This document shows, in pieces, positions 5,115-62,854 of a stretch of 64,000 bases of DNA. The DNA lies in contig CAMAFY010000012.1 in NCBI GenBank assembly GCA_945833885.1, positions 1-64,000 of the forward strand, in the 5' to 3' direction. A program made the position numbers and the translations under genes. The notes beneath the pieces are model-generated. The model saw only the letters and a program-made list of their open reading frames with translations. It was not told the origin of the DNA and searched no databases. Numbering within the stretch: position 1 is the stretch's first letter; each line of letters starts with the position of its first letter. The stretch comes from an uncultured Bacteroidales bacterium. GTDB lineage: Bacteria > Bacteroidota > Bacteroidia > Bacteroidales > Bacteroidaceae.

Positions 5115-6764
5115 CTAAATGGCATCTACGAAACGTATGATGGCGTCACGGTCCGCTTTCGGCAGTTTTCTGAATTTCTCGATGGTGTATCTGGCATCGC
5201 TCTTCGACGAATACCCGTGCCACATGATGGCCTCCATGGTGGTGCGGGCACGGCAGTCGTGCAGACGGTCGGCGGTCGGACTGCCGGTGACTTTCTGATG
5301 AAGTCCGCGTCCCCAGAGGGGTGTCGTGCGGCACCATCCACCACGAATGTCGTTCTTCATCAGCAGTTTATGCTGCACCATGTCGGTGTACGGCCAAATC
5401 TTCTGGTAAGGGAAGCGTGGAAGTTCGTTGCCTTGGAAGAAGTTTGCGGGGTCTATGACAATGTCGGGACCGGTGGTCCAACTGGGCTTGTGGCAATAGT
5501 CGCAGCCGATTTCGCTGAACAATTCCTTGCCTCTCAGCACATCGGGGTCGTCGATGTCGCGGACAGCCGGTACGGCAAGACCACGATGCCACACCATCAG
5601 GTCGGTATATTCGTCGTCGCTCATCTCAGCATCGAGGTTCTTGTCCGTGAGGTAAGCCGTGATGCGTTCCTCCATTGTGCCTTCCCAATACGAGGGATGC
5701 TTGTGCTTGGGGTCGATGCGTTCGATGTATTTTTCAAAGCCTGCCTGCACGTCGGGGTCGGCGGCGGAGTATTTCACGTACGTTCCTGCGGCATCAAGAT
5801 AGTGGTATCTTCTGTCGGAACGTGTGACGTTCGTGATGTTCCAGATGGCGTTCGCACCGGCGGCATCCTGCAACGGTCCGCGTGAAAGGGCGTAGGTGTA
5901 GCGGCGCACATACTTTGTCCCGTCGCCTTGAAGGCTGTTGGCATACATCGAATTCCAGTTGCCGTTGGCAAAGAATGCGGTGTTCAGTCCGTTCGGCATC
6001 AGACCATCCGCCTCTTCCTTGCGGTATTGGGCGAGGAGATCGTCTTCTGTGATGGCGTCGAGCAGGCCGGTTCCGTACACACCGATGGTGGATTCAAGTT
6101 TCACCTCGTAGTCCGAGGGGAGTTGGTAGCCCTGGTTTACGACGTAAATTGCCTCGCGGGGTATCGAAACTTCGGGATATTGCAGTTCATACTCCTCGCC
6201 ATCGTCAAAGCGGTTGTTCCACTCATCGGTGGCATCCACCCATGTTACCATGGTTTTCGACTCGTCGAGCGGTGCCTTGAAAGGCGCTACCGCATGGGTT
6301 TGCGGCATACCCGACAGCCAGGGAACGTAGCCTTCGGTCTCGGGATTGTAGACTACCAGCAGGCATCCGTTGCCGATGTCGTTGGTGTTGAAGGCACCTT
6401 CCGGAAGTCTTGTTCCATGTCCGTAGTTGGGATGGCAGTGTTGGCACGAGGTTCTTATGTACACCGGGCCGAGACCGGAGCGCACGCCCGTCTGATTGGT
6501 CATGAAAGGTTTCTCAAACAGTGCCTCTCCGTTCTTGAAAGATTGGTAAAGTCCCTGTTCTTCAACGGCGGGTGCGGGCTGTTCGAACACATTGCTGGTG
6601 CTCAACAGTGTGGTTCCGAGTTCGCCACCTGCGTAAAACCATTCCGGCAGGTTCGCCTCGTCCGGAACGATATCGTCGGTAATCTCGTCTTCCGAGCAGG
6701 ATGCTGTGGCGAGAGCCATGCAGGAGAAGAAGGCGAATTTGAAGAAATTCCTTGTCTTTTTCAT
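5115..6764 (-). CDS. Di-haem oxidoreductase (DHOR, formerly 'thiol oxidoreductase'), lipoprotein
   Basis: Lipobox-like ATASC; CXXCH haem sites CQHCH and CDYCH; C-terminal LWGRGLH...HDCRARTTMEAIMWHG. Confidence 0.88.
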   Translation of the reverse strand: MKKTRNFFKFAFFSCMALATASCSEDEITDDIVPDEANLPEWFYAGGELGTTLLSTSNVFEQPAPAVEEQGLYQSFKNGEALFEKPFMTNQTGVRSGLGPVYIRTSCQHCHPNYGHGTRLPEGAFNTNDIGNGCLLVVYNPETEGYVPWLSGMPQTHAVAPFKAPLDESKTMVTWVDATDEWNNRFDDGEEYELQYPEVSIPREAIYVVNQGYQLPSDYEVKLESTIGVYGTGLLDAITEDDLLAQYRKEEADGLMPNGLNTAFFANGNWNSMYANSLQGDGTKYVRRYTYALSRGPLQDAAGANAIWNITNVTRSDRRYHYLDAAGTYVKYSAADPDVQAGFEKYIERIDPKHKHPSYWEGTMEERITAYLTDKNLDAEMSDDEYTDLMVWHRGLAVPAVRDIDDPDVLRGKELFSEIGCDYCHKPSWTTGPDIVIDPANFFQGNELPRFPYQKIWPYTDMVQHKLLMKNDIRGGWCRTTPLWGRGLHQKVTGSPTADRLHDCRARTTMEAIMWHGYSSKSDARYTIEKFRKLPKADRDAIIRFVDAI

Positions 6765-9359: not shown

Positions 9360-9697
9360 ATTTAACTGCTTTTTTTGTACTTCTTTGAAAATTTTGTGCA
9401 AAATTACGCCGTTTTTCACGCCACGGCAATACCTAAATTTGCTGATTTTTGGACACCGGATGTCCTGTAATATCCGTGTCCATACTATAATTTCAGTAAA
9501 AAAGTGGGGTATTTCCCGGCCTTCTGTGCCGTGCAATACCTGATTTGTGTGTCGCATTCCCCAAAATCGGACGGGGAAGGGAGGTTGCGGAGGCGGTGTC
9601 TTTTTAGGCGGTGATGGGGCGTCCGGAACGGTGGGGCGCCATGCTCTTCGGTGAGGGTTCGCCCAATCTTTCACATCTTCCATATACGCGCGCGCAA

Positions 9698-9785
9698 ACC
9701 TCGGAACTTCGTGCTGGAAAGTGCCGGGGTTTGCGTTGGAAAGTTCCGAATATTCGAGGGGAAAGTGCGGATGTTTTTCCATGGA
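9698..9785. repeat. 22-bp tandem array, 4 units
   Basis: ACCTCGGAACTTCGTGCTGGAA / AGTGCCGGGGTTTGCGTTGGAA / AGTTCCGAATATTCGAGGGGAA / AGTGCGGATGTTTTTCCATGGA, contiguous. Confidence 0.75.
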
Positions 9786-15912: not shown

Positions 15913-16827
15913 ATGATCAATAGAGCTTTAATCCGTCTCAAAGTAGTGCAACTCATTTACGCCTACTATCACAACGAAGGCAAGACTACGGAGGTAGCCT
16001 TGACGGAACTTGATTACAGTCTTAACAAATCTTACGACCTCTACCTGACGCTTCTCGCGTTTCTTCTTGAGATACACCGCATCGCCCAATACAAGGTGGG
16101 TGTGCGCGAACGTTCGGGTTTGCGTCCTGCTGAGGCTGATGTGCTCATTACGGAAAACCGTTTCCTTCAGCAGTTGGCCCAGAATACCGCACTCATTGAA
16201 TGGGAAAGCAAACAGAAATTCAGGTGGACCAGCGAGGAAGCCTTTGTGAAACGCATCTATACGAATTGGACTGATGACGATGTCTTCGGCGATTATGCCG
16301 ACCGTTCTCACCGCGATTATGAGGACGACCGCGAACTCGTGCGTAAACTTTACAAGAAATTCGTGGTCAACAACGAGGATTTCGCCCCTGTTTTGGAGGA
16401 CATCTCGCTCTATTGGAACGATGATAAGGAAATCATCGACAGTTTCGTGCTCAAAACCATCAAACGTTTCGCCCCCGAAAATGGTGCCGACCAGCCCCTC
16501 CTCCCCGCATATAATGCCAAGGAGGACCATGAGTTCGCCCGCACACTCTTCATCACGACCATCGAGAATTGCGATGAAATCCGCGGAATGATGGAGCATG
16601 CCAGCCGTAACTGGGACATTTCGCGCATGGCTTTCATGGATGTCATCATCATGCAGATTGCCATTTCCGAAATCATTGCCTTCCCTTCCATCCCGCTTAA
16701 CGTGACTTTCAGCGAATATATTGACATCGCCAAAGTGTATTCCACCCCGAATTCCTACAAGTATGTCAATGGTATGCTCAACAACATTACCCGACAGTTG
16801 CAGGAGAAGGGCGTCATCCATAAATGA
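15913..16827 (+). CDS. nusB: Transcription antitermination factor NusB
   Basis: MINRALIRLKVVQLIYAYYH; NWDISRMAFMDVIIMQIAISEIIAFPSIPLNVTFSEYIDIAKVYST. Confidence 0.92.
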   Translation: MINRALIRLKVVQLIYAYYHNEGKTTEVALTELDYSLNKSYDLYLTLLAFLLEIHRIAQYKVGVRERSGLRPAEADVLITENRFLQQLAQNTALIEWESKQKFRWTSEEAFVKRIYTNWTDDDVFGDYADRSHRDYEDDRELVRKLYKKFVVNNEDFAPVLEDISLYWNDDKEIIDSFVLKTIKRFAPENGADQPLLPAYNAKEDHEFARTLFITTIENCDEIRGMMEHASRNWDISRMAFMDVIIMQIAISEIIAFPSIPLNVTFSEYIDIAKVYSTPNSYKYVNGMLNNITRQLQEKGVIHK

Positions 16828-16924
16828 AATGATCGTCATTTGCGGCTAAGAGGTTTGTCATCCACAAATGAAAGGACCGTCATTTACGGCTAAGATGGTT
16901 GGCATCCACAAATAAAAGGACCCT
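16815..16924. repeat. 44-bp (2 x 22) tandem repeat starting inside the nusB stop region
   Basis: CATCCATAAATGAAATGATCGTCATTTGCGGCTAAGAGGTTTGT / CATCCACAAATGAAAGGACCGTCATTTACGGCTAAGATGGTTGG / CATCCACAAATAAAAGGACCCT. Confidence 0.9.
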
Positions 16925-16989
16925 GAACATCAATCCTCATCCCCGTCTTTCCATCCGTTTTTTTTGCGCGCGCGTAATTATTATATGTG

Positions 16990-17142
16990 TAGTACGTCCT
17001 GTATTCTAATGGAGTATTTCATGTATTGTAATGTAGTGTTCCCTGGATATAATGGTGTACGTCTTGCCGAATGATGGTGTATGCCTTGTCATATAAGGGA
17101 CTGCGCTTTATCAAACAAAGGGGATGTGCCTTGTCCGTCACC
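16990..17142. repeat. 22-bp tandem array, 7 units
   Basis: TAGTACGTCCTGTATTCTAATG / GAGTATTTCATGTATTGTAATG / TAGTGTTCCCTGGATATAATG / GTGTACGTCTTGCCGAATGATG / GTGTATGCCTTGTCATATAAGG / GACTGCGCTTTATCAAACAAAG / GGGATGTGCCTTGTCCGTCACC. Confidence 0.75.
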
Positions 17143-24216: not shown

Positions 24217-24392
24217 TTTTCCGTCATACTGCCAAAGGCCTCGGACCTTTCTGGCGAAAACCTCCGGAATCTCCAACCGAAACCTCTGGACTTTACGGCA
24301 GATACCTTTGAACTTTACGGCAGAGACCTTTGAACTTTACGGCAAAATGTGCGGAACTTTTATGCGGAAACCTCCGATGTTTTCCGTCCGGC
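24217..24392. repeat. 22-bp tandem array, 8 units
   Basis: TTTTCCGTCATACTGCCAAAGG / CCTCGGACCTTTCTGGCGAAAA / CCTCCGGAATCTCCAACCGAAA / CCTCTGGACTTTACGGCAGATA / CCTTTGAACTTTACGGCAGAGA / CCTTTGAACTTTACGGCAAAAT / GTGCGGAACTTTTATGCGGAAA / CCTCCGATGTTTTCCGTCCGGC. Confidence 0.88.
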
Positions 24393-28676: not shown

Positions 28677-30299
28677 ATGAAAAATATAAAGTCGCTTATT
28701 GCAGGTCTCTGTGGCGTTGTGGCACTTACTACCGCATGCTCCGACTCTGATTATACGGAGAAGTATGACAACCCTTCACAGACCACAAAGGTTACTTGCG
28801 ACCGCCTCATGACCGGTACGCTCTACTACGGCCGCGAGTACACCTTCAACTCCTACTGGCGTATGTATACTTGGGACAATGGTATCATTGGTAAGTATGC
28901 ACAGACCATAGGATTCACCTTGGCTAACAACAGCATGTGGTCGGCACAGGATAGTTACGTTGGAAACCGTTGGGAGAACTTCTACGGTATCCTCGCTCAG
29001 TTCCGTGTGCTTGAAAACACCTACAACAGTCTTGACGACGATCAGAAGAAGGTGAACCTCGCTTATCGCGACATCGCAGAAGTGTTCGTGCTTGACCACC
29101 TCGCACAACTTCTCGACGCTTTCGGTTCTGTTCCTTTCACCAAGGCCGGATATCTCGGCATCACCGGTGACGTTGTCAACAGTTATCCTTCCTATGACAG
29201 CGATGTTGACCTCTACAAGCACGTCATCGACCGTCTCGGAGTACTCTCCAATGAACTCTCTCAGGTTGCTGCCAACACTCCCACAGTCGTTGCTTCCGCA
29301 CTTCCCCAGCAGGATTTCATCAACAAGGGTGAACTTGACCGTTGGGTGAAGTACGCTAACGCTCTCCGTCTCCGTGCCGCAGTTCGCGTTGCCTCTCAGG
29401 GTGATCTCGTAGAGACCGGCAAGACTGCTATTAAGGAAGTTCTTGGAAAGGCTCTCCCCGCCTCCTGCGATGCTACCACCGATTGGGTTGCTGGCGAAAA
29501 CATCGTCGCTATTCCTGACCTCGATGGTTTCAACTATTATCAGAACTTCCGCGATGGTTACAAGGATCACAGCCGTGCTTCTCAGGCCATGCTCGACGTT
29601 CTCGGTGCTGAAGACCCTCGTCTCCCCGTCATGTATTCTACGAATGCTGCTGGTGAATTCAAGGGTCTTTCTACCACTAAGGAAACTCTTGGTGAGCAGG
29701 AAACCAACGTAAGCCTTCCCGAGGCTCAGCGTGTTTACTCCCGCATCGACTCCACTCTCTTCTACGAGAACAAGAACATGCTCTCTCCCATCGTTACCGT
29801 TGCTGAGGTTGACTTCCTCCGTGCTGAGGCCTATCAGCGTGGTTGGGCTACGGGAGACGCTAAGGCTGCGTTCGTTGATGGCGTATGGCACTCTACCCAG
29901 TTCTACTTTACCCAGAACATGAATTCGGAAATCGTTTCTGCTGGTGTGCCGGGTTATCATGCAAGTGCTGTTCCTGCTGAGGCCGATGTCCGCGCTTATG
30001 CAGAACGTCTGTGGGATGCCGCTAATGACAAGGCTGACCTCATCGTTTCGCAGAAGTGGCTCAACTTCGGTTTCTTCCAGCCTTCTCAGGCTTGGGCAGA
30101 AGTTCGTCGTACTGGATATCCCAGCATTCTCTACTTCCCCAAGGATGAAACTGCTCAGCTCTTCAAGACTGTTCCCGCTCGTGTACGCTATCCGTCCGTA
30201 GAGCAGAACAACAATGCCGCTAATTACGACGCTGCTGTTGAGGCTCTTGGCAACCATCCAGACAGCTACGCTTACATCAAGCTCTTCTGGGCTAAGTAA
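28677..30299 (+). CDS. SusD/RagB-family nutrient-binding lipoprotein
   Basis: Lipobox TTACSDSD; immediately 3' of SusC; SusD-like helical sequence. Confidence 0.92.
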   Translation: MKNIKSLIAGLCGVVALTTACSDSDYTEKYDNPSQTTKVTCDRLMTGTLYYGREYTFNSYWRMYTWDNGIIGKYAQTIGFTLANNSMWSAQDSYVGNRWENFYGILAQFRVLENTYNSLDDDQKKVNLAYRDIAEVFVLDHLAQLLDAFGSVPFTKAGYLGITGDVVNSYPSYDSDVDLYKHVIDRLGVLSNELSQVAANTPTVVASALPQQDFINKGELDRWVKYANALRLRAAVRVASQGDLVETGKTAIKEVLGKALPASCDATTDWVAGENIVAIPDLDGFNYYQNFRDGYKDHSRASQAMLDVLGAEDPRLPVMYSTNAAGEFKGLSTTKETLGEQETNVSLPEAQRVYSRIDSTLFYENKNMLSPIVTVAEVDFLRAEAYQRGWATGDAKAAFVDGVWHSTQFYFTQNMNSEIVSAGVPGYHASAVPAEADVRAYAERLWDAANDKADLIVSQKWLNFGFFQPSQAWAEVRRTGYPSILYFPKDETAQLFKTVPARVRYPSVEQNNNAANYDAAVEALGNHPDSYAYIKLFWAK

Positions 30300-30371: not shown

Positions 30372-30402
30372 AGGAGGTTGCACCCGAAAAGTGCAACCTC
30401 CT
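30372..30402 (+). terminator. Rho-independent terminator of the susCD-like operon
   Basis: AGGAGGTTGCAC / GTGCAACCTCCT 12-bp perfect stem followed by TTACTTTT. Confidence 0.88.
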
Positions 30403-30525
30403 TTACTTTTCCTGTATGGCGTCCTTTACTTTTCCTGTGCCGCGCGTGGAGGATATATATACGTTTTGCGGTGTTTGACGGCACCGATGGCGGTGACTCT
30501 CTGCGCGCGAGGCAGCAAAAAGAAG

Positions 30526-30567
30526 GTCAGGAGACCGATGTCCGGTGGTGGACGTCGGTCTCCTGAC
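30526..30567 (+). terminator. Second strong hairpin terminator
   Basis: GTCAGGAGACCGATGTCC ggtggt GGACGTCGGTCTCCTGAC, followed by TGTTTTCGTTTT. Confidence 0.8.
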
Positions 30568-30682
30568 TGTTTTCGTTTTGCGGGCAGTGCCGGTTTCTTG
30601 GGGTTTCGGGGAGAGAAAGCCCCGACATCGGTGGGGAAATCCTCAGACGTAGGCATCAGAAAAACAGATGCTACGTTGAACG

Positions 30683-31012
30683 ATGTTCATGTTTCAATGA
30701 GAAAGTACGGATGGCTCAGCGGGAAAACGGGGTTCTCTCAACGGGAAGATGAGAGTGTTTCATCGGGAAAGCGTAGATGCTTCAGAAAGTAAGTGCTGTA
30801 CTTTCGGTTGGAAAGTGCGGAACTTTACATTGAAAAGTACGGAAGTTTCTGCATTGAAATGCGGAACTTTGAAAGGGCAAACGTGGAACTTACAAGGTAC
30901 GAACATGCAACTTCCAAGGCTGGGATATGCAACTTTCAGGGTCGGGATGCGGAACTTCAAACGTAGAATCCGGATGCCCCTTGTACAAAATCCGGAGGCC
31001 TTGCCTGGATTT
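30683..31012. repeat. 22-bp tandem array, at least 13 units in exact register
   Basis: Units start at 30683, 30705, 30727, 30749, 30771, 30793, 30815, 30837, 30859, 30881, 30903, 30925, 30947; two weaker units follow. E.g. GTGCGGAACTTTACATTGAAAA, ATGCGGAACTTTGAAAGGGCAA, ATATGCAACTTTCAGGGTCGGG. Confidence 0.88.
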
Positions 31013-31035: not shown

Positions 31036-31503
31036 TTAGCAACCGTCGTCGCTGTAGAGCGAACGCTCCAGCGGGCTTTCCCATGCGAAGATTTCTTCGG
31101 GACGGAAGAAGCGGGCAAGTTCTGCGGCAGCCGTCTCGGGACCGTCGGAGGCATGCACGATATTCTGCTGGCCCGACATGCTGTAATCACCGCGGATGGT
31201 GCCGGGAAGCGCCTTGCGTCCGTTGGTAGGACCAGCCATCTGGCGTACAACTTCAATGGCGTCTACGCCTTCGAGGGCAAGTGCCACTACGGGAGTCGCC
31301 TTCATTGAATCGCGAAGTCCGGGGAAGAAGGGGCGGTCAACGAGGTGAGCGTAGTGCTCAGCAAGGATGGCGTCGTCGAGTTGCATCATTTTCAGTCCGG
31401 CAACGCGGAGACCTTTCTTTTCGAAACGGCTGATGATTTCGCCAATCAGCGCACGCTGTACGGTGCAGGGTTTCAGGAGAACTAATGTTGTTTGTTTGTT
31501 CAT
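31036..31503 (-). CDS. ndk: Nucleoside diphosphate kinase
   Basis: TLVLLKPCTVQRALIGEIISRFEKKGLRVAGLKMMQL; NIVHASDGPETAAAELARFF. Confidence 0.95.
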   Translation of the reverse strand: MNKQTTLVLLKPCTVQRALIGEIISRFEKKGLRVAGLKMMQLDDAILAEHYAHLVDRPFFPGLRDSMKATPVVALALEGVDAIEVVRQMAGPTNGRKALPGTIRGDYSMSGQQNIVHASDGPETAAAELARFFRPEEIFAWESPLERSLYSDDGC

Positions 31504-31548
31504 AGTATAGATAAATGTTATGGATGTTCGTGAATGGTGCGGCGGAGG

Positions 31549-31658
31549 TCCGTCGGGGGAAGCGGAGTCGGCCCTGGAAGCCTTGACTATGGGCCTTGGA
31601 AGCCTTGATGATTGACTTTGAAATCCCCGTTAGTCGGCCTTGGACTTAGCGGTTTTGT
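31549..31658. repeat. 22-bp tandem array, 5 units
   Basis: TCCGTCGGGGGAAGCGGAGTCG / GCCCTGGAAGCCTTGACTATGG / GCCTTGGAAGCCTTGATGATTG / ACTTTGAAATCCCCGTTAGTCG / GCCTTGGACTTAGCGGTTTTGT. Confidence 0.75.
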
Positions 31659-31946
31659 CTTCCGTTTCTTTCAGAACTTCGCGTTCTCCACTGTGCCGGA
31701 ATGTCAGGAAATGCGGCGCTTTTGCCGTATCAGAGGGCGGCGGAATGCGGCAAATTTATCCGGCAAAACGGCAATGAAAAATGGAGGTGGTGGTTTGTCG
31801 TCCTTACCAAAACAAATGGTTGATACCTACTTGTTTACATGAAAAGATTGTTAAACACGCTTCAAAATTAACGTGTTTAGTCGAAACTGCCAAGTATTTC
31901 ATCTAATTTCATCATATTAGAGCGGGCGAATGTCGTTTTTTTTCTC

Positions 31947-47938: not shown

Positions 47939-48158
47939 GCTGAAATTTGCGCGCCTGGCTTTTGACGAATGTGTGCAAGACCTTTACGGTTCGCCTGTCA
48001 AGCCTTTGACAAAGGCGTGCAAAGTTTTTGGCAAGAGCGTGCAAGACTTTTGCAATTCGTCTGTCAAGTCTTTGACGAGTGCTTTCAAAATATCTGAAGA
48101 GCGCGTTCAAGACTTTTGACAAAGGCATGCAAAGTTTTTGGCAAGAGCGTGCAAAACA
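47939..48158. repeat. 22-bp tandem array, 10 units (9 in exact 22-bp register)
   Basis: 47961 TTTGACGAATGTGTGCAAGACC ... 48005 TTTGACAAAGGCGTGCAAAGTT / 48027 TTTGGCAAGAGCGTGCAAGACT ... 48115 TTTGACAAAGGCATGCAAAGTT / 48137 TTTGGCAAGAGCGTGCAAAACA. Confidence 0.93.
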
Positions 48159-48178
48159 TCAAATGATACGATAAATTT

Positions 48179-49974: not shown

Positions 49975-50018
49975 CCCCTCCTCCGTGTTTCGCATGCGGA
50001 GGAGGGGATTTTCTTTTT
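49975..50018 (+). terminator. Rho-independent terminator of cysD
   Basis: CCCCTCCTCCG / CGGAGGAGGGG perfect 11-bp stem, then ATTTTCTTTTTT. Confidence 0.88.
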
Positions 50019-50130
50019 TCTTTCATTAGTCATCGCGAACCCTTCTTTCATTCATCGCGAGCCCTTCTTTCAGCCATCGCGAGCCCTTCTTTCATTCATC
50101 GCGAACTCTTCTTTCAGTCATTGCGAACCT
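50018..50130. repeat. 22-bp tandem array, 5 units (first is 25 bp)
   Basis: TTCTTTCATTCATCGCGAGCCC / TTCTTTCAGCCATCGCGAGCCC / TTCTTTCATTCATCGCGAACTC / TTCTTTCAGTCATTGCGAACCT. Confidence 0.95.
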
Positions 50131-50219
50131 TTTTTCCGTCGTCGTGATTTTTACCTTCTGTCAATTCGTGTTCGTCCTTCTGAGGATGGGGGGACGGATT
50201 CCGGAGGTTGCGAAAAGGA

Positions 50220-52248: not shown

Positions 52249-52424
52249 TGTTGCCCTGTGCTTGGCGGAAAGTTCCGAAGTCTCGATTGTAAAGTTCCGA
52301 TGTTTTCAATGTAAAGTTCCGATGTTTTGATTGGAAAGTGCGGATGTTTCAAACATGAAGTGCCGATGTTTTGGAGGCAAACCACGGATGTTTCGGGCAA
52401 GGAGTTCCGCATTTTTTGCCGCCT
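52249..52424. repeat. 22-bp tandem array, 8 units
   Basis: AGTTCCGAAGTCTCGATTGTAA / AGTTCCGATGTTTTCAATGTAA / AGTTCCGATGTTTTGATTGGAA / AGTGCGGATGTTTCAAACATGA / AGTGCCGATGTTTTGGAGGCAA / ACCACGGATGTTTCGGGCAAGG / AGTTCCGCATTTTTTGCCGCCT, preceded by TGTTGCCCTGTGCTTGGCGGAA. Confidence 0.93.
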
Positions 52425-52828: not shown

Positions 52829-55075
52829 TCATTTGCCCATAACGTAGGTGAGTTTGCCGCCTTGTACGATGTCGGCATGCTCGATATAGTTCTTTTTGTA
52901 GGTCTTTCCATTGAGGAGGATCTTCTTCACATACTTGTTTTCCTCCGACAAGCCTTTGGCTTCAATCTCGAAAGTCTTGCCGCCGTCGAGGTGAAGCGTG
53001 AAGTGTTTCATCTGCGGGGCTCCGAAAACGTAGCGTGCGCTGACGGGGTCGACGGGGTAGAATCCCATGGCAGAGAGCATATACCATGCCGACATCTGTC
53101 CGCAATCGTCGTTTCCGCACAGACCATCAGCCTTGGGCAGGTACTGCGTGTCGAAGATTTCGCGCACGAGTTCTGCCGTGCGTCGAGGCTGACCAGCCAA
53201 AGCATAGAAGTAGGCAACGTGGTGAGAAGGCTCGTTTCCGTGGGCATACTGGCCGATAAGTCCGGTGACGTCGCTCAGCGTGCTCTCGAGTTTCGTGGTG
53301 AAGAACGTGTCGAGGCGCTTGATGAATTCGGTCTTTCCGCCGAGGAGTTCGATGAGTCCGTCGACATCGTGCTGCACATGCCAGGTGTATTGCCAGGCGT
53401 TACCCTCGGTATAGTCGCCACCGCTGCTTTCGGCGTGCGCGAGTCCGGCGGGGTCGAAGGGCGTCTTCCAGGTGCCGTCGGCAAGTCTCGGACGCATGAA
53501 TCGCGTTTCGGGGTCGAAGAGATGCTTGTACCATGTGGCACGTTCCGCGAAGTATTCGGCATCCTCGGTGCGGCCCATGAGGCGTGCCATGTCGGCGGCG
53601 GCGTAGTCGTCATAGACACTTTCGAGGGTCGAACTTACGCTTTCCGCCTCGGTGAGGTCGGTGGGGAAGTAGCCGTACTTCGTGTAGACCTCCCAGTTGC
53701 TCTTGAGGGGATGCGACACGGTCTGCGTACGTTTGATGGCCTCGAAGGCGCGGTCGGCGTCGTAATCACGGAAACCCTTGTGGTAGGCTTCCGCCACAAT
53801 GCTCACGGCATGGTTGGCGATCATGCAGTAATTGTCGCGGCCCCAGAGTCCCCAGATGGGCAGATGGCCCTCGCTTTCGGCGAAACTTACGAGGCTGCGT
53901 ACAAAGGGATTGACCTTTTCGGGCACGAGAAGGGTGTAGAAAGGATGGGCAGCGCGGTAGGTATCCCAGCAACTGAAGGTGGAAAAGTACTCAGTTCCCA
54001 CCTCCGTCTGCGCGGGATTTCCCTTCGAATCGCGGTAGCGGCCGTCGACGTCGGCAATGTTGTTGGGCTGGATGAGCGCATGATAGAATCCCGTATAGAA
54101 GTTCTTTTTCTGCTCTTCCGTGCCGTCAATCTCCACGCGTGCGAGATAAGAGTCCCAGGTAGCATCGGCCTTTTCCACGAGGCTGTCGAAGACGCTTGCA
54201 GGGAGTCCCGGTGTGCGGCCTTCAAGGGGCATGGGTTCCTGGCCCCAGGGCTGCAGTCCGGCCGCCAGTTGTCCCATTTCGGTCTGCAGATTGCGGCGTG
54301 CGCCGTCGAGACTGTAACTCGAAAGGGCAACGGTGACGCCAAGTTGCTCGCCTTTTGCCAGACGGAAACGGTTGACGATGCGCTTGCCTTTCTCGCCTTT
54401 TTCCATTTTCAGGAACTCCTGTTTCGCAACGGGATGGTTGAAACGCATGACGAACCAGTAGTCCTGTTCCACCCAAACCGTGTTGCGGACGTGGCCGCTG
54501 AGGGTGTATTCGTCGTCCATCTGCACCTCGCAGGCGTTGGTCTGTGTGTGGTATTGCTTCTCGTTCCATGCCGGGGCGTGGTTGAGGTCGACGAGGAGCG
54601 CGGCGTTTTCCGGGTCATCGAACGTGAAACGGTATACGCCGGTGTGGGGAGTGGAGGTGACTTCCGCCTTTACCCGCGGGCCGTCGAGGAAGACACTGTA
54701 ATAGCCGGGACGGGCATTCTCGCTCGATTTCTTGAAGGCGGAGTAGTAGTCTGCCGGATTGTGGCTGGCCTCACCCTTGATGTTCGCGGGCATGATGAGG
54801 ACATCTCCGAGGTCCATGCACCCCGTTCCGTTGAGGTGGGTTTGGGTAAATCCCCAGATGGTAAGGTCGGTTCCTACGTATTCCGAGCAGTAATTCCAGC
54901 CCACACCGCCGGTGACGGGCGATGCCTGTACAAGTCCGAAGGGGACGCAGGCTCCGGGAAAGGTGTGGCCGGTGCCGATGCTGCCGACGAAGGGGTCGAC
55001 ATATTTGGTGAAATTGCCGGCAAAGGCAGCGCTGCTACCAGCCAGCATCAGGGAGAGAAGAATGGATTTTTGCAT
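52829..55075 (-). CDS. GH92 family alpha-mannosidase
   Basis: YVDPFVGSIGTGHTFPGACVPFGLVQASPVTG; FWDTYRAAHPFYTLLVPE-type motif FSCWDTYRAAHPFYTLL; GNDDCGQMSAWYMLSAMGFYPVDP. Confidence 0.95.
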   Translation of the reverse strand: MQKSILLSLMLAGSSAAFAGNFTKYVDPFVGSIGTGHTFPGACVPFGLVQASPVTGGVGWNYCSEYVGTDLTIWGFTQTHLNGTGCMDLGDVLIMPANIKGEASHNPADYYSAFKKSSENARPGYYSVFLDGPRVKAEVTSTPHTGVYRFTFDDPENAALLVDLNHAPAWNEKQYHTQTNACEVQMDDEYTLSGHVRNTVWVEQDYWFVMRFNHPVAKQEFLKMEKGEKGKRIVNRFRLAKGEQLGVTVALSSYSLDGARRNLQTEMGQLAAGLQPWGQEPMPLEGRTPGLPASVFDSLVEKADATWDSYLARVEIDGTEEQKKNFYTGFYHALIQPNNIADVDGRYRDSKGNPAQTEVGTEYFSTFSCWDTYRAAHPFYTLLVPEKVNPFVRSLVSFAESEGHLPIWGLWGRDNYCMIANHAVSIVAEAYHKGFRDYDADRAFEAIKRTQTVSHPLKSNWEVYTKYGYFPTDLTEAESVSSTLESVYDDYAAADMARLMGRTEDAEYFAERATWYKHLFDPETRFMRPRLADGTWKTPFDPAGLAHAESSGGDYTEGNAWQYTWHVQHDVDGLIELLGGKTEFIKRLDTFFTTKLESTLSDVTGLIGQYAHGNEPSHHVAYFYALAGQPRRTAELVREIFDTQYLPKADGLCGNDDCGQMSAWYMLSAMGFYPVDPVSARYVFGAPQMKHFTLHLDGGKTFEIEAKGLSEENKYVKKILLNGKTYKKNYIEHADIVQGGKLTYVMGK

Positions 55076-55238
55076 TGAAGGTTAACGTGTGTCAGAGGGT
55101 TATGATAAGTGGCTTCCTGCTGCCGGAGGGGGAAAGTTCCTACGGAAGTGCGGCGTGCCCCGCCGGTAACGTGCGAAGCCGTTCCGTGAAAAGCCGGAGG
55201 CAGGTCTGGAAAGGCTTCGCAGAAGGAGGGTAGAAACG

Positions 55239-57599
55239 TCAGTTGATGCGGAAACTTCCTTCGAGGCGGATGTCGTTGGAGGCGGCACCCACCATCACTT
55301 TGAACTCGCCCGGCTCGACGACATGCTCCATTTTCAGGTTGTAAAGTGCGAGGTCGTCGTGGCGGAGGTCAAAGGTCACGGTGCGGCTTTCGCCGGCTTT
55401 GAGGGCCACACGGTCGAAATTCTTGAGCGCCATGTGGGGAGTCTCGACGCTGCTTGTGACATCGCGGACATAGAGTTGCGGCACTTCCTCGCCGTCCTTG
55501 CCGCCGGTGTTGGTGAGCGTGAAGGTGATTCGGGCAAGAACATCCTCACCGGGAGCGGCCTTCACCGGAGAGCATACCAGATTGGAATAGGTGAATGTGG
55601 TGTAACTCTTGCCATAACCGAAACTATAGAGCGGCGCGGCGGGTGAGTCGATGTAGTCGTGGCTGGGATGTTTGCTGTAGTATACGGGAATCTGTCCCAC
55701 GTTCCGGGGAATGCTCACCGGAATTCTGCCTGCCGGATTGTAGTCGCCGAAGAGGACATCAGCGATGGCCATGCCACCTTGTCCGCCAGGATACCATGCC
55801 GTGAGCAGGGCATTGGCCTTCTCGGCGGCGAGGTTCATGTTGAGAGGACGGCCCTCAATGTATACAACCACCAGTTTCACACCGGCATCGATGAGGGCTT
55901 GCATCAGCGTTTCCTGGTCTCCCATGAGTTGAAGGCTTGCACGGTCGTAGCCTTCGCCGCTGTCCATATCGCTGAGTTCGCCCTTTCCTACGAGTGCTGC
56001 ACCGGTGGAAAGGTATTCCGTCTTGAAGTCTCGGGCGCTGGAACCTCCGACGACGAGGATGGTGACCTCGCTACGTTTGGCGGCGGCTACGGCAGCCTCG
56101 ATGTCGGAGTGCTGTGTGTCGCGGATGGCACAGCCCTTGACGTACTCCACTTCTGCGGCGGGAAGCATGGCGCGCACGCCGTCAAGGACGGTGGAAATGG
56201 CGGAACGTTCCTGCGGAGCCGTGTAGTCGCCCAACTGGTTGTACATCATATCGGCATTCGGACCTATGACGGCCACGTGGCGAAGTTCCTTGCTTAGGGG
56301 CAGGATGCCGTCGTTTTCGAGCAGGCAGATGCCTTTCCGTGCCACCTCGCGTGCCAACTGTTGGTTGGCCTCGCTGCGCACAATGCGCGCGGCACGTTTG
56401 GCATCGACGTAGGGATTCTCAAAAAGTCCGAGGTTGAACTTCAGGGTGAGCACTTTCGCAACGGCGCGGTCGAGGTCGGCTTCGCTGGCCTTTCCCGTCT
56501 CGATGGCGTGGCGGAGGAATTGGAAACTGTTGCCTTCGAGGTCGATGTCCACGCCGGCGTTCACGGCAAGTGCGCCCGCCTCTTCCCAGTTTTCCGCACA
56601 ATGGTGGGTCTGGGCTACGCCTTCGATGCTCTGAAGGTCGGAATAGATGGCTCCCTTGAAGCCCCATGTGTCGCGCAGGACCTCGGTCAACAGGTGGCGG
56701 TTGCTGGTGCATGGCACGCCGTCTATCATATTATAGGAGGTCATGATGCTGCCGACTCCGGCTTCGACTGCGCGCTTGAACTGGGGCACATATTCGCTCA
56801 TCAGGGTGCGTTCGCCAATGCTTGCCATCTCGCCGTTCAGACCTCCCTCGGGAATACCGTAGGCGGCGAAGTGCTTGAGTGTGGAATAAACGTGGCGGCC
56901 GTCGTTGCTCACTTCGCCGTTAAGGGCGAGGTTTCCCTGCATACCGCGCACCACTTCCGATGCGAGGATGCCGGCAAGTGTGGGGTCTTCACCGAAGGTT
57001 TCCTCCATACGGCTCCAACGTGGCTCCCGGGCAATGTCGATGACCGGGCCGTAACCTACGTGTGCTCCCTGGGCACGGATCTCGTCTCCCATGGCCTCGC
57101 CCATCCTGAAAAGCACGTCGCGGTCAAAGGTTGCCGCCTGGCTGAGCGCGGTGGGGAATACGGTTGCTCCGATGGCCATGTGTCCGTGAGGCGTCTCTTC
57201 CGCCACCATGATGGGGATTCCCAGGCGCGTTTTCTCGACGGCATAGCGCTGCATGTCGTTCATCAGTTCGGCGGCAAGCGCGGGATTGAGGCCCGTGGTA
57301 AGGGTCTTCTGGGTCCAGGGGTCGGCACGGAGCACCGCCCAATAGTTACCTATGTGCTGCTCGTCGGTGTATTTGTAGAACTTTTCTGTGAGGCTTACCT
57401 TGCCTTTCGCGTCCTTGTCGTAGATGAACCACCCGAGAGGGCAGCGCACCTGACCGATCTTCTCGTCGAGGGTCATGCGTGAAAGTAGGTCAGCCACCCG
57501 AAGTTCTACGGGCTGTGAGGCATCCTTATATACAGGCTTCTGGGCGTTTGCTGTCAGCGAGCACGCCATCAGGAGCATCGCTATCTGTGTCTTTTTCAT
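55239..57599 (-). CDS. GH3 family beta-glycosidase
   Basis: RVADLLSRMTLDEKIGQ; KHFAAYGIPEGGLN; GAIYSDLQSIEGVAQ; ARKGICLLENDGILPL; fibronectin-III-like C terminus. Confidence 0.95.
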   Translation of the reverse strand: MKKTQIAMLLMACSLTANAQKPVYKDASQPVELRVADLLSRMTLDEKIGQVRCPLGWFIYDKDAKGKVSLTEKFYKYTDEQHIGNYWAVLRADPWTQKTLTTGLNPALAAELMNDMQRYAVEKTRLGIPIMVAEETPHGHMAIGATVFPTALSQAATFDRDVLFRMGEAMGDEIRAQGAHVGYGPVIDIAREPRWSRMEETFGEDPTLAGILASEVVRGMQGNLALNGEVSNDGRHVYSTLKHFAAYGIPEGGLNGEMASIGERTLMSEYVPQFKRAVEAGVGSIMTSYNMIDGVPCTSNRHLLTEVLRDTWGFKGAIYSDLQSIEGVAQTHHCAENWEEAGALAVNAGVDIDLEGNSFQFLRHAIETGKASEADLDRAVAKVLTLKFNLGLFENPYVDAKRAARIVRSEANQQLAREVARKGICLLENDGILPLSKELRHVAVIGPNADMMYNQLGDYTAPQERSAISTVLDGVRAMLPAAEVEYVKGCAIRDTQHSDIEAAVAAAKRSEVTILVVGGSSARDFKTEYLSTGAALVGKGELSDMDSGEGYDRASLQLMGDQETLMQALIDAGVKLVVVYIEGRPLNMNLAAEKANALLTAWYPGGQGGMAIADVLFGDYNPAGRIPVSIPRNVGQIPVYYSKHPSHDYIDSPAAPLYSFGYGKSYTTFTYSNLVCSPVKAAPGEDVLARITFTLTNTGGKDGEEVPQLYVRDVTSSVETPHMALKNFDRVALKAGESRTVTFDLRHDDLALYNLKMEHVVEPGEFKVMVGAASNDIRLEGSFRIN

Positions 57600-57656
57600 G
57601 TTTTTCCAAAGATTTTCGGGGTTGTCTGCGGGTATTCCGGAAGAATTTCCCGTCTG

Positions 57657-59063
57657 TTACTGGATGGTGAACTGAAGTGCCACACCGTTTTTGCCGTTCG
57701 CACCCTTGGGAAGTGTGACGGTGGTGACGTCGCCTGCTGTGGTATACTTCACCGTCTTCCCGGTTTCGAGCCATGTCATCTTGCCTTTCGGGGTGTTTCC
57801 TTTCCAACTGATGGTGGCGGGCATCGGAGCATCGTCGCTCTGGGGCACGATGGCGTAGAGGGTCTTGCCGTCCTTTGCGGCGGTGAACCATACGCTTTTC
57901 TCATCGTTTGTATAGACCTCGGTGGTGCGGGTGCTGTAGATGGCCTTGCCGTTTTTCCGCAACCATGCGCCGACGGGACGGAGCACAGCCTCCACTTCGG
58001 GCTGAATCAGGCCGTCGGGGGTCGGACCGACACCCAGCAACAGGCAACCGCCTTTGGCACAAATCTCGGCAAGGATGCCGACAACCTTTGCGGGGCTCTT
58101 GAATTTTGCCGAAGGATCCCATCCCCAAGCGTGGCTCAATGTGATGCAACTCTCCCAGGGATAGTTCAGTTGTACGTCAGGAATGGAGCGTTCCGGCGTC
58201 TGATAGTTCTCCCACTTCGTCTTCATCGCGCGGTCAACGCTGATGAGTCCGGGGTGTTTTCCCGCACGCGCCTTCTGAAGTACCTCTTCCAGATACACGT
58301 CTTCCGCTTTTACCCATCCGCCGTCGAGCCAAAGGATATCGAAACGTCCGTAATTCTCGGTAAGTTCCATCAGTTGGTTCTTGCAGAACGTGCGGTAATT
58401 CTCCCACCACTGCCGATGTTCGTCGGTGTCGAGTTTGTAATTCCGTCCGCGTCCGCTGCATCCGTAGTAATCATTCCAGAACCATTGGCTGTGCCAGTCG
58501 GGCTTTGAGAAGTAGCATCCAATCCAAAAGTCCTTCTTTCTGAAAGCATCGAATACGAAACGTGCGACGTCGGACTTGGGATTTCCGGCAAACGGGGTGG
58601 CTTTTGCAATGGAAAAGTCGGTATATTTCGAGTCGAACATGCAGAAACCGTCGTGGTGCTTCGTGGTGAACACCATGTATTTCATACCGGCGTCCTGCAT
58701 GATGTCTGCCCATTGTTCGGGGTTGAAGTTGTAGGGATTGAACATTTTCGACAAATCCCAGTACCATTTCTTATAACTTTCGTAGGTGAATCCTGCCGGA
58801 CGTGTGATCCAGTCCTCGGAACATATTGGCCAACTCTCGCAGATTCCCGGCACAGAGTACAGTCCCCAATGGAAGAGTACGCCGAATTTAAGGTCCTTCC
58901 ACTCGTCAAGTTTGCGGAGAACGGTGGGGTCTTCCGGAGCAATGTATCCGTTTGCTTCGTGCTGGTGGACAAAACTGTTGCCTGCCTCCTCGGTTTGTGC
59001 CGAAAGGGCCATGGCATTTGCGGCGAACAGTGCCGTAGCGGTCAGAATTTTCAGGTATGACAT
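57657..59063 (-). CDS. GH29 family alpha-L-fucosidase
   Basis: WKDLKFGVLFHWGLYSVPGICESWPICSEDW; KYMVFTTKHHDGFCMFDSKYTDFSI; FDILWLDGGWVK. Confidence 0.93.
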   Translation of the reverse strand: MSYLKILTATALFAANAMALSAQTEEAGNSFVHQHEANGYIAPEDPTVLRKLDEWKDLKFGVLFHWGLYSVPGICESWPICSEDWITRPAGFTYESYKKWYWDLSKMFNPYNFNPEQWADIMQDAGMKYMVFTTKHHDGFCMFDSKYTDFSIAKATPFAGNPKSDVARFVFDAFRKKDFWIGCYFSKPDWHSQWFWNDYYGCSGRGRNYKLDTDEHRQWWENYRTFCKNQLMELTENYGRFDILWLDGGWVKAEDVYLEEVLQKARAGKHPGLISVDRAMKTKWENYQTPERSIPDVQLNYPWESCITLSHAWGWDPSAKFKSPAKVVGILAEICAKGGCLLLGVGPTPDGLIQPEVEAVLRPVGAWLRKNGKAIYSTRTTEVYTNDEKSVWFTAAKDGKTLYAIVPQSDDAPMPATISWKGNTPKGKMTWLETGKTVKYTTAGDVTTVTLPKGANGKNGVALQFTIQ

Positions 59064-59126
59064 ATTGTTTAAAAAAGGATGAAATGGGTATTTGATGTTA
59101 GGTTGATTCGTTAGTGGTGGGGAAAA

Positions 59127-59280
59127 CCGCGTGTTTTCCGTGCTGATGTCGCGCACCTTCCGTATTGATGCCGCGCACCTTCCGTGTCGATGTCGTGTGC
59201 TTTCCGTATTGATGTCGCACACCTTCCGTGTCAATGTCGCGTGTTTTCCGTATGGATGTCGCACATGTTTCTGGGGAACA
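59127..59280. repeat. 22-bp tandem array, 7 units
   Basis: CCGCGTGTTTTCCGTGCTGATG / TCGCGCACCTTCCGTATTGATG / CCGCGCACCTTCCGTGTCGATG / TCGTGTGCTTTCCGTATTGATG / TCGCACACCTTCCGTGTCAATG / TCGCGTGTTTTCCGTATGGATG / TCGCACATGTTTCTGGGGAACA. Confidence 0.95.
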
Positions 59281-59432
59281 GATTGGGAACCGTATGGGAA
59301 GGCTTTCAGGCTCTTTTGCGGATGTTCCCAAGCCGTGTTGCAATGGCTTCCGCACCTTTTTAATATTATATTAAAGGTGGCGTATAAAAAATTAAAAGGT
59401 GGCGTATAAAAAGTGGCGTCTCAAGTAACGGG

Positions 59433-59674
59433 TTGTTTCGACGCATTTGCTTGGTTCCCGAAGACTTCTTACGACGTTTCCCGAAGGCTTCTTACGGCGG
59501 TTTCCGGTCCTTCTCGTAGAGGTCTCCGGATGCTGTTGCAAGGTCCTCCGAACCCTATTGCGGAAACTGCCGTATTTTGCAGCGGAAAGTTCCGCACTTT
59601 GTGGCCGGAAGTTCCGCACTTTTTGGTGGAAAATGCCGCACTTTTTTACGGATGCTTCCCATCCCTTCGGCGCG
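59433..59674. repeat. 22-bp tandem array, about 11 units
   Basis: GGTTTCCGGTCCTTCTCGTAGA / GGTCTCCGGATGCTGTTGCAAG / GTCCTCCGAACCCTATTGCGGA / AACTGCCGTATTTTGCAGCGGA / AAGTTCCGCACTTTGTGGCCGG / AAGTTCCGCACTTTTTGGTGGA / AAATGCCGCACTTTTTTACGGA. Confidence 0.88.
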
Positions 59675-59708
59675 GACCTCGGCGGCGGTGGTTTCTTATA
59701 AGCGCGAA

Positions 59709-59753
59709 ATCTTTCGGAATCAGCGCCTTACGGGGGCGGAGATACCGAAAGAT
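59709..59753 (-). terminator. Possible terminator downstream of the PNGase-F-like gene
   Basis: ATCTTTCGG / CCGAAAGAT stem with inner CGCC/GGCG pairing; weak U tract. Confidence 0.45.
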
Positions 59754-59759
59754 GTTCAA

Positions 59760-61487
59760 TCATTCATAGTAAAGAAGCGTGCCGGAGATGCACCAGTAAC
59801 TGTTGCTTCCACCCTCAGGCTGGCCCTGGGGAATGTCAACTGTGATGGTGTGGTCCCCTGCTTCGAGGTCGCCAAGATAGATGTATTCGGGGTTGGTCAC
59901 CGTACCCGGGCACCAGTTGCTACGGCTCAGGTCGCTCGAAGCGAGGCCGTTGGCGAAATTTCCGGAGCAAGGTGAGTTGTTACGGTACGTACCGCAGTCG
60001 TCGCGCCACGGAATGAAGTCGATGACTTTGCGGCCGTCGAGCGAGATGGTGTTGATCTTCTGGTTGAATTCGTCGCCGTTTCCCCAGCCGCCATGTCCGG
60101 TGGTGAGGTAGTAAAGCACGGCCTTTTTCACCGGACGGTCCAGATGGAAATTGGCTTTCAGGTTGTCGTCGAGCATGAAGATGGGGTAGGGCTGGCCGTC
60201 CTGTTCCAACAGATTGACGGTGTTGAAGAGGGGCATGGCGTGGCGCACACCCGTGGCGCTGTCCTCGTCGCCCGGATGATAGGTCAGTTTCAGGCTGATT
60301 CTGTGGCCGTTGGCGTCCCAGTTTCCGATGTAGGCACCAATCCATGCCTCGCCTTCAAGGTGGTCAACGAGTGGCGTGACATTGAGTTGGTAGGTGACGG
60401 AGTCCACCCAATCCTGTCCGGGCACGCGGTTGTTGTTGAACTGGCGCACGCCAAATCCGGTGAAGAAGCGCATAAGTTCTACGGGAACATCGTAGTCCGG
60501 TGTGCTGACGAGCCCGTGATAGTCGGTGTCGCCGCTGTGGAATGCGGGCACGCTTTCGAGTTTGTGCATGGCATCGAGGAAACTCTTCTCCTTGCCGGTC
60601 GGCACAACGAAAACCGAACCCGTGCGGTCGTAAGCGTCGCCCACGGAATACTGCGTCAGCGTGGCGTAGATTTCGCGGTCGCGGGCGTGGGCGGGGAGTT
60701 TCACCTTTTTGAGGATGATGGTTCCTCCTCCGGCGCTATACTGCACGTCTGCCTTGAGTTCCGAAACGTTTCCCAGTTTCTCGCCGCTGAACTTCACGGC
60801 CTGCTGGTCGAAAATGTTGATGTCGATGTCGTAACAGTGGTTACAGGTGTAGGTATAATCGTCGATGTCCATCCCGTCGCCCCACGATTCGGGGAAGAGG
60901 GTGCGCTTTTCGGTGAGGACATTGATGGCGGAAACCTCCTGCGTAGCGTCGCCGTTTCGCACGACTTTCAGCACCAATCCGTCGGGAGCGCACGCGTTCA
61001 TGAACTGCGGTGTTCCGCGATATCCTTCAAGGGCGTCCGTCCACCACACGTCATAGGTGTTGCTTCTGACGCTGTATCTGTAGACATGGCAGGGCAAACC
61101 GTAGACGATTTCATCGTCAAGAACCTTGACATGGCCCTCGCCGACCTTGAATTCGTAGCCGGTATTGATGAGCCGTCCGTTGGGAAGTTTCGCCAGCCGC
61201 CGTGACGAATGTTTGCTCCAGTCCTGGAAATCTGTGGTGACGAGGTGTCCGGCAGTCTCGGCTTCGGCACCTTCCTTCTTGGCTTTTTCCAGAGACACCT
61301 CGTTCCCGACGATGGTCATGACCATTTCTCCGGGCCGCACTTTTCCCTTGTAGAGGGAGCGGTAAACGACTTCAATGCCCTGTCCTTTCCGGACTTTCTT
61401 TACGAGAGGCGATGCTGCCTGTGCGCAAGGCACGGTAATCATGCAGCAAAGCGCCATGATGATGGTTGCAAAAAAACGGTTTTTCAT
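59760..61487 (-). CDS. PNGase-F-like (peptide-N-glycosidase) secreted protein
   Basis: Signal peptide; C-terminal half VELMRFFTGFGVRQFNNNRVPGQDWVDSVTYQLNVTPLVDHLEGEAWIGAYIGNWDANGHRISLKLTYHP resembles the PNGase F two-domain fold family. Confidence 0.62.
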   Translation of the reverse strand: MKNRFFATIIMALCCMITVPCAQAASPLVKKVRKGQGIEVVYRSLYKGKVRPGEMVMTIVGNEVSLEKAKKEGAEAETAGHLVTTDFQDWSKHSSRRLAKLPNGRLINTGYEFKVGEGHVKVLDDEIVYGLPCHVYRYSVRSNTYDVWWTDALEGYRGTPQFMNACAPDGLVLKVVRNGDATQEVSAINVLTEKRTLFPESWGDGMDIDDYTYTCNHCYDIDINIFDQQAVKFSGEKLGNVSELKADVQYSAGGGTIILKKVKLPAHARDREIYATLTQYSVGDAYDRTGSVFVVPTGKEKSFLDAMHKLESVPAFHSGDTDYHGLVSTPDYDVPVELMRFFTGFGVRQFNNNRVPGQDWVDSVTYQLNVTPLVDHLEGEAWIGAYIGNWDANGHRISLKLTYHPGDEDSATGVRHAMPLFNTVNLLEQDGQPYPIFMLDDNLKANFHLDRPVKKAVLYYLTTGHGGWGNGDEFNQKINTISLDGRKVIDFIPWRDDCGTYRNNSPCSGNFANGLASSDLSRSNWCPGTVTNPEYIYLGDLEAGDHTITVDIPQGQPEGGSNSYWCISGTLLYYE

Positions 61488-61642
61488 ATTATCGATAGTA
61501 TTGTTTCAGGTTTTCGGTACAATAGTCTCGGGGTATCGATTCAAAGGTTTTATGTAATTGTAATGATGTTTTCAGGTAACCCTTACGGCATTTTCAAGAT
61601 TCCGACACAAACGTTTCAGGGTGGTTTTTCCGCTGTCGACGA

Positions 61643-62854
61643 TTAGTCTTTCAGCATATTTTCCGGCAGACGTTTGAGGTCGATGATGGCGTATGCCGGT
61701 CTTTGTCGCCGCCAGGTATAGAGAACCCATATCCGACCATCGGAGGCTTCCACCACGCAGGGGTAGGAATACTCCCCTTCATGGTCGGTTTCGAGGTCGG
61801 CAATCTTTGTCCAATGTACGGCATCGTTGCTGATGGCGACGCTCAAAGGTGTGCGGACTCCTTCGCGTCCTGAGTCGTTGTAGACCAGAACATGGCGTCC
61901 GTCGGAGAGCGTCAGCGCGTCTGTTCCAGAGTTGTTGTTGGGCATGTCGCCTAATTGCACCTGTGTCCACGAGTGTCCTCCGTCGATGCTCGTCGTCTCT
62001 GCCAGCCGTCCGTGCCGCGTTCTTCCGATGGCTTTGAGGTTTTGCTCGTCGTTCCTGCCGTTAAGGTACAGGATGCTGGGCTGGATGCACTCTATCGTGT
62101 CGCAATCCACCTCAATCATTTGCCAGGTTTTGCCGTTGTCGTCAGACGTTTCAAAGTGGAATTTCCAGCGTCCTCCGGTCTCTGTGCTCGAACCTGCCAC
62201 GATTCTTCCCGAAACTGTCACTTCCGGCTTGTTCTTCACTGGTCCCAGTTGGGTGAATCTTTTGGTGCTGTCGTTCGTCAGCGCCCGTGGTCTGCTCCAT
62301 GTCTGTCCGTTGTCGTACGAGCGGATTTCCCATCCTGTCCAGTCCTGCACCCATTTTCCTATCTTGTAATCCAGGACCAGCGCGCCGTCGTTCAGGCGGT
62401 AAAGCACGGGATTGTAGCACGGTTTGCGCACGAGAGGCGAGATGAGTGGCTTCCCGCTGTGCGGTGCCGGTGCCGCCCATGTCGTCTTTTCGAAGATGCT
62501 GTCGCGGTGGCAGAGGCTTTCGAAGTCGGCATCGTAGTCGAAGGCTTTGCGTGTCGCGGCTGTGTAGATGCCGTCTGCCAGGAGTGTCGGCTCCGTCCAT
62601 TGCTGTGTGGAGTCATCGTATTTCGAGGTCCAAATGCAGCAGTCGGGATGCCCTTCATACGTGCCTCCGAAAAACGCCGCCATCATTTCGCCCGTAGAAA
62701 GTTGCACTACGGTAGTGGCATGGCAGGAGGGGAAAGCGGTTTCTTCGTAGATGAAGCCCTGCTCCACCACGCAAGGATAGGGCGAGGGAGCGTGTTTTTT
62801 TGCCGCGATGGGCAGTGAAATGGCAAGGAGTACAGCGGAAAATAATTGTCTCAT
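61643..62854 (-). CDS. BNR/Asp-box sialidase-like exoglycosidase
   Basis: Asp-box-like SYDNGQTW, SDDNGKTW, SIDGGHSW; NNNSGTDALTLSDGRHVLVYN; EYSYPCVVEASDGRIWVLYTW. Confidence 0.75.
   Translation of the reverse strand: MRQLFSAVLLAISLPIAAKKHAPSPYPCVVEQGFIYEETAFPSCHATTVVQLSTGEMMAAFFGGTYEGHPDCCIWTSKYDDSTQQWTEPTLLADGIYTAATRKAFDYDADFESLCHRDSIFEKTTWAAPAPHSGKPLISPLVRKPCYNPVLYRLNDGALVLDYKIGKWVQDWTGWEIRSYDNGQTWSRPRALTNDSTKRFTQLGPVKNKPEVTVSGRIVAGSSTETGGRWKFHFETSDDNGKTWQMIEVDCDTIECIQPSILYLNGRNDEQNLKAIGRTRHGRLAETTSIDGGHSWTQVQLGDMPNNNSGTDALTLSDGRHVLVYNDSGREGVRTPLSVAISNDAVHWTKIADLETDHEGEYSYPCVVEASDGRIWVLYTWRRQRPAYAIIDLKRLPENMLKD

Follow-up and report, generated by a model that had tools for sequence, protein, structure and literature searches.

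The 22-bp periodic array located in the gap between the convergent genes susD and ndk of an uncultured Bacteroidales bacterium is not isolated, but belongs to a class of intergenic elements that is spread over the genome. The conserved unit of these elements is a palindrome of 15-17 bp and the usual number of units is four, two features missed by the sequence-only reading in which the array had been noticed. We consider it somewhat probable that the array is a cluster of such odd palindromes, canonically four, which act as phased sites for a putative dimeric, oligomerising DNA-binding protein.

The array was analysed within a stretch of 64,000 nucleotides, referred to as the window, and its features are collected in Table 1. 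Identity at a lag of 22 positions is 0.535 over 30660-31012, with 0.46 at lag 44, 0.47 at lag 66 and about 0.25 elsewhere. Between 30683 and 30968, 156 of 264 positions match at lag 22, while the maximum obtained in 2000 shuffles, at any lag from 15 to 30, was 101; the coordinates and the exact 22-bp register originally claimed are right. Adjacent units are identical at 10-17 of 22 positions (45-77%), in agreement with the claimed fall to roughly half, and the array is indeed the longest of period 22 in the window, with 303 bp versus 178 bp for the second. The span first assigned to the feature, 30683-31012, needs correction, as only the portion up to 30968 is array and 30969-31012 corresponds to the ndk terminator-like hairpin. 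Similarly, the description as a decayed non-coding repeat holds for the non-coding part, but decay is not uniform. By using a scoring matrix (PWM) built from 28 other arrays, four strong cores were found, scoring 9.2, 22.4, 20.3 and 17.0 against a 99.9th percentile of 8.9, with weak or degenerate units, still in register, on both sides. Among positions within ±10 bp, nine of the 12 units score best exactly on the 22-bp register; those at 30746, 30900 and 30922 are too degenerate for placement by the matrix. The hairpins behind susD have 12-14 and 20 pairs and T-rich tails, and one of them is usable on both strands. The ndk hairpin was not listed by a consensus terminator scan, and no Rfam match at or above the gathering score was found across the window.

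Table 1. Position of the susD-ndk array, its neighbours and other period-22 arrays in the window
Feature	Position	Strand	Evidence
Core-family quartet, 4 units	9696..9776		core analysis
Period-22/44 array without core	16813..17121		lag scan
Core-family array, 7 units	24236..24382		lag scan, core analysis
susD-like gene, left neighbour	28677..30299	+	PF12771, E=1e-47
Two strong hairpin/terminator-like structures (30372-30402, 30525-30568), 3' of susD, before the array	30372..30568	+	hairpin scan
susD-ndk array, 12 units (15-bp core + 7-bp spacer)	30702..30958		PWM offset 0 in 9/12; lag-22 identity
Four well-preserved palindromic cores, starts 30790, 30812, 30834, 30856	30790..30870		PWM scores
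ndk terminator-like hairpin AAAATCC...GGATTTT, directly beyond the array	30983..31011	-	read from sequence; paired in fold
ndk, right neighbour (convergent), stop codon at 31036	31036..31503	-	PF00334, E=1.7e-47
Period-22 array without core, upstream of ndk	31542..31662		lag scan
Period-22/66 array without core	47957..48169		lag scan
Period-22 array without core	49995..50165		lag scan
Core-family array, 7 units	52269..52415		core analysis
Period-22/44/66 array without core	59104..59281		lag scan
Core-family quartet, 4 units	59564..59644		core analysis
Weak period-22 array without core	61471..61580		lag scan

When 455 kb of this genome (G000), made up of contig C1 and the window, were scanned by lag, 55 period-22 arrays were detected, about one per 8 kb, some 12 of them in the window. 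All are non-coding and intergenic, according to gene calls from a simple codon-usage script, and no period other than 22 or its multiples was found. A common unit family is present in 36 of the 55: a 15-bp palindrome, AAA-N3-CSG-N3-TTT, followed by 7 bases almost devoid of sequence preference. Allowing up to 2 mismatches, this core matches 107 times in intergenic and 11 times in coding sequence. When the whole genome was searched for a second core 1-30 bp away from the first, 410 matches were obtained versus 2 for the control; among the matches listed, the spacer is either 7 bp or, where one unit is skipped, 29 bp, except for two 1-bp cases which adjoin A/T runs. In this listing, core distances are thus 22 or 44 bp apart from those two cases, while spacers compared between arrays are only 29% identical, nearly random, so that length is kept while sequence is lost. 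Selection on spacing, proposed at the outset, is the reading that survives and is supported by these data. Four is the commonest number of cores in the arrays of this family (30/49), and the susD-ndk array, with its four strong cores, conforms to it.

The remaining arrays, about a third, are made up of units unrelated to the core and mostly non-palindromic, still repeated at 22 bp. Near-identical neighbours and higher-order repeats of 44 or 66 bp occur in several arrays of this genome, especially core-less ones, and some core-less arrays look like recent local duplications. Along contig C1, the density of arrays in 1-160000 is about three to four times that in 160001-390909, for a similar intergenic content, and all its core-less arrays fall within the first 160 kb. 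The window also contains, at 52829-62854, a glycan-degradation cluster with GH92 mannosidase, alpha-L-fucosidase, PNGase F-like and BNR sialidase-like genes.

The same design is found with other letters in related species. In Prevotella koreensis, for which 900 kb of complete chromosome were read (samples of most relatives range from 20 to 115 kb), the core is a different palindrome, CAA-N4-GSC-N4-TTG. Exactly four cores are present in 37 of 41 arrays, and 108 core pairs lie at +22 bp, with none at 21 or 23. This pattern was detected in 2 of 300 Bacteroidaceae genomes, with a spacer of always 5 bp among the matches listed, in the second species as well. Four units were also observed at loci of three more species, one with core GAAAGAACGGCTTTTTC (L039) and two with a P. 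koreensis-like core (L041, L048). Within the genus of the window, a step of 21 bp is found in G016, G002, G051 and G015 and both steps, 21 and 22, in Alloprevotella tannerae, while no arrays were found in 100 kb of G004. A. tannerae is placed in this genus because a single Lrp match, with identical coordinates, was obtained for both handles G045 and G079.

Periods were also compared by a core-independent test, in which four in-phase odd palindromes were counted at each step from 16 to 30. The count peaks at 22 in G000 (37, versus a mean of 1.3 at other steps) and P. koreensis (38, versus 6.8), and at 21 in G016 and G002 (4 and 5, versus about 0.3). The core of G000 is essentially private, with 0-2 pattern matches in 57 genomes of the same genus. 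No enrichment at 21 or 22 was observed in the samples from six further Bacteroidales families (f2, f3, f7, f8, f9, f16), and a seventh (f12) had a single 22-bp array. A period-22 array, with units AAACYACGGTGATTT fitting an AAA-N3-CGG-N3-TTT skeleton, is also present in a phage-like contig (L290:979-1137, IMG/VR viral). Just downstream of ndk, P. koreensis carries a different short repeat, AGACAGAAAGACATAAAGG-like (L044, about 5549-5671), where the related OH937 (L041) instead contains a quartet, indicating positional turnover; in the closest named relative a stretch with 18/21-bp periodicity, probably coding, lies just beyond ndk (L029:5737-5937).

The location of the arrays relative to genes was evaluated in P. 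koreensis. The median distance to the nearest stop codon is 42 bp, compared to 72 for random placement, and start codons are avoided (10th percentile of the distance 77 bp, versus 18 for random placement). Convergent gaps are favoured, with arrays in 14 of 52, versus 6/92 and 11/79 for the tandem orientations. The flanking genes are a mixture of housekeeping and glycan genes; for this reason, and since no transcription factor stood out by eye at the divergent P. koreensis arrays, a regulon was rejected.

A minisatellite is an unlikely explanation. In this reading, arrays would arise and persist without function through slippage or unequal recombination at a favoured step of 22 bp, and the register would survive since indels occur less often than substitutions. 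Such a process would account for the 44/66-bp higher-order repeats and near-identical neighbours described above, and for the units of G000 core arrays, which within an array are somewhat alike, above chance. In P. koreensis, however, units of the same array resemble each other no more than units of different arrays, and their number is exactly four in 37 of 41 arrays. In G000, conservation of the core contrasts with random spacers, and no other period occurs among intergenic arrays. Simple VNTR decay was rejected on the basis of this single period, the core-only conservation and the unrelated P. koreensis units, and the decayed tandem repeat of the sequence-only reading is the wrong model, as those units are not related by duplication. 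Relation of units by local duplication is absent in P. koreensis, weak in G000 core arrays and evident in some core-less arrays; the likeness of neighbours in G000, together with the apparent recent duplications, suggests that local amplification also acts in that genome.

A comparably low probability is assigned to a selfish palindromic element, similar to REP/BIME or MITE sequences and spread by a transposase. The quartets share with REPs, mobilised by RAYTs, a profile of short intergenic palindromes, biased to 3' ends, clade-specific and present in hundreds of copies (PMC3733652). They differ in having no selected stem-loop pairing, a strict 22-bp phase and a modal number of four units, and in lacking both a copy relationship and a matching RAYT distribution. 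Similarity between whole P. koreensis arrays does not exceed that between arrays of permuted units, and flanks aligned at the array edges are conserved at the last one or two bases only, with no longer common ends. The Y1 transposase domain (PF01797) was not found in G016, G002, G051 and G049 (21-bp arrays), and only a partial match was found in G000; its distribution does not fit RAYT as binder or mover of the arrays. Many intergenic loci with tandem units of about two helical turns are also known in Bacteroidales as BrickBuilt, a 23-nt minisatellite MITE of Porphyromonas gingivalis, present in 19 copies with a leader, a tail, terminal inverted repeats and a shared unit (PMC4596501). The quartets instead occupy 100-300 loci, with free spacers and a species-specific core, and shared ends are absent. 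The lack of relatedness of both units and arrays in P. koreensis argues against tandem duplication and transposition, unless very old, and fits long-standing selection on individual, independently maintained sites.

An RNA-level element, made of hairpins or bidirectional terminators in 3' UTRs, is very unlikely. P. koreensis arrays lie 16-80 bp after stop codons and fold better than dinucleotide shuffles (z = -5), but chimeric arrays reach the same folding energy (z 0.2), and in G000 the real arrays fold worse than chimeric ones (z +2.7). In addition, half-site words mix freely within P. koreensis units, identical half-words not being enriched. Pairing is therefore not selected, and RNA hairpins and terminators were rejected on the grounds of the comparison with chimeric arrays. 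Moreover, 10 of the 41 P. koreensis arrays are located between divergent genes and the array of the window is situated beyond the ndk hairpin. A terminator scan around the P. koreensis arrays was uninformative, since few terminators were found there at all.

Molecular drive, by which sites accumulate through a preference in DNA uptake or transfer and the 'dialect' varies by clade, agrees with the genome-wide spread, the clade-specific sequence and the missing copy relationship, but is highly improbable, as uptake sequences are single short words and not four-fold phased clusters. CRISPR arrays were excluded, because their repeats are identical, 24-48 bp long and separated by spacers of about the same size, whereas here imperfect 15-17-bp cores alternate with 5-7-bp spacers. 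Curvature by 11-bp A/T phasing was likewise discarded: period 11 takes up 24% of variance in core arrays (9.5% expected) and is weak, 15%, in core-less ones.

The reading that we favour is that of phased docking sites. Each palindrome would be the site for one protein dimer, and the free mixing of half-site words within a unit is as for recognition of half-sites by a protein. The cluster is phased strictly at two helical turns, 22 bp here and 21 bp in several relatives, which would place every dimer on the same helix face; a single oligomer of four dimers, for example an octamer, could then bind the whole 81-83 bp cooperatively and would probably wrap or bend the DNA. With an element every 10-20 kb or so, mostly just after stops and away from starts, an architectural or insulating role is more likely than a regulon: the element could anchor a domain or act as a roadblock where genes converge.

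In the literature, no description of Bacteroidales palindromes phased in fours was found. The iterons of plasmid R6K are 22-bp direct repeats in helical phase, bound cooperatively by protein; compared to iterons of this type, the quartets are palindromic and distributed chromosome-wide rather than at one origin. Closer in geometry are the sites of Lrp/AsnC octamers, such as BarR of Sulfolobales, where 4-5 regularly spaced 15-bp semipalindromes, two helical turns apart, are bound by an octamer of dimers with DNA wrapped (PMC10201364). The quartets likewise contain about four 15-bp odd palindromes two turns apart, and by analogy an oligomer of four dimers on one DNA face would be the most economical model. 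Lrp/AsnC sites are found in one promoter region, while each genome has more than 100 quartets, for the most part located at the ends of genes. For the octameric RemA ring of Bacillus, wrapping of periodic DNA repeats of low conservation has also been proposed, with a periodicity of 10 bp (7-bp protected regions plus 3-bp gaps), unlike that of the quartets (PMC8481266). The conserved Lrp/AsnC itself is an unlikely binder, because one recognition helix is found across species with different cores and in array-less species: the orthologue keeps SRAAIHQR in G016, A. tannerae, G044, G051, G046 and the array-less G026. Divergent Lrp paralogues remain candidates.

Some observations count against docking sites. 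The core-less third of the G000 arrays, some of which look like recent local duplications, is not accounted for by this model, and the family arrays of that genome show some within-array similarity. In addition, congeneric species have different cores, which would require hundreds of sites to have changed in step with the protein.

A wider proposal is advanced tentatively: Bacteroidaceae chromosomes may be dotted with quartets of phased palindromes as putative docking elements for a nucleosome-like oligomer, whose specificity turns over between close species, and which would constitute a new system for chromosome organisation or transcription insulation. The strict phase, number and placement make direct bench tests possible in cultured P. 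koreensis. If the quartets are docking sites, an architectural or insulating system extends along the chromosomes of a whole family of dominant gut and oral bacteria, and its clade-specific cores would reflect the rapid co-evolution of a DNA-binding protein with hundreds of sites.
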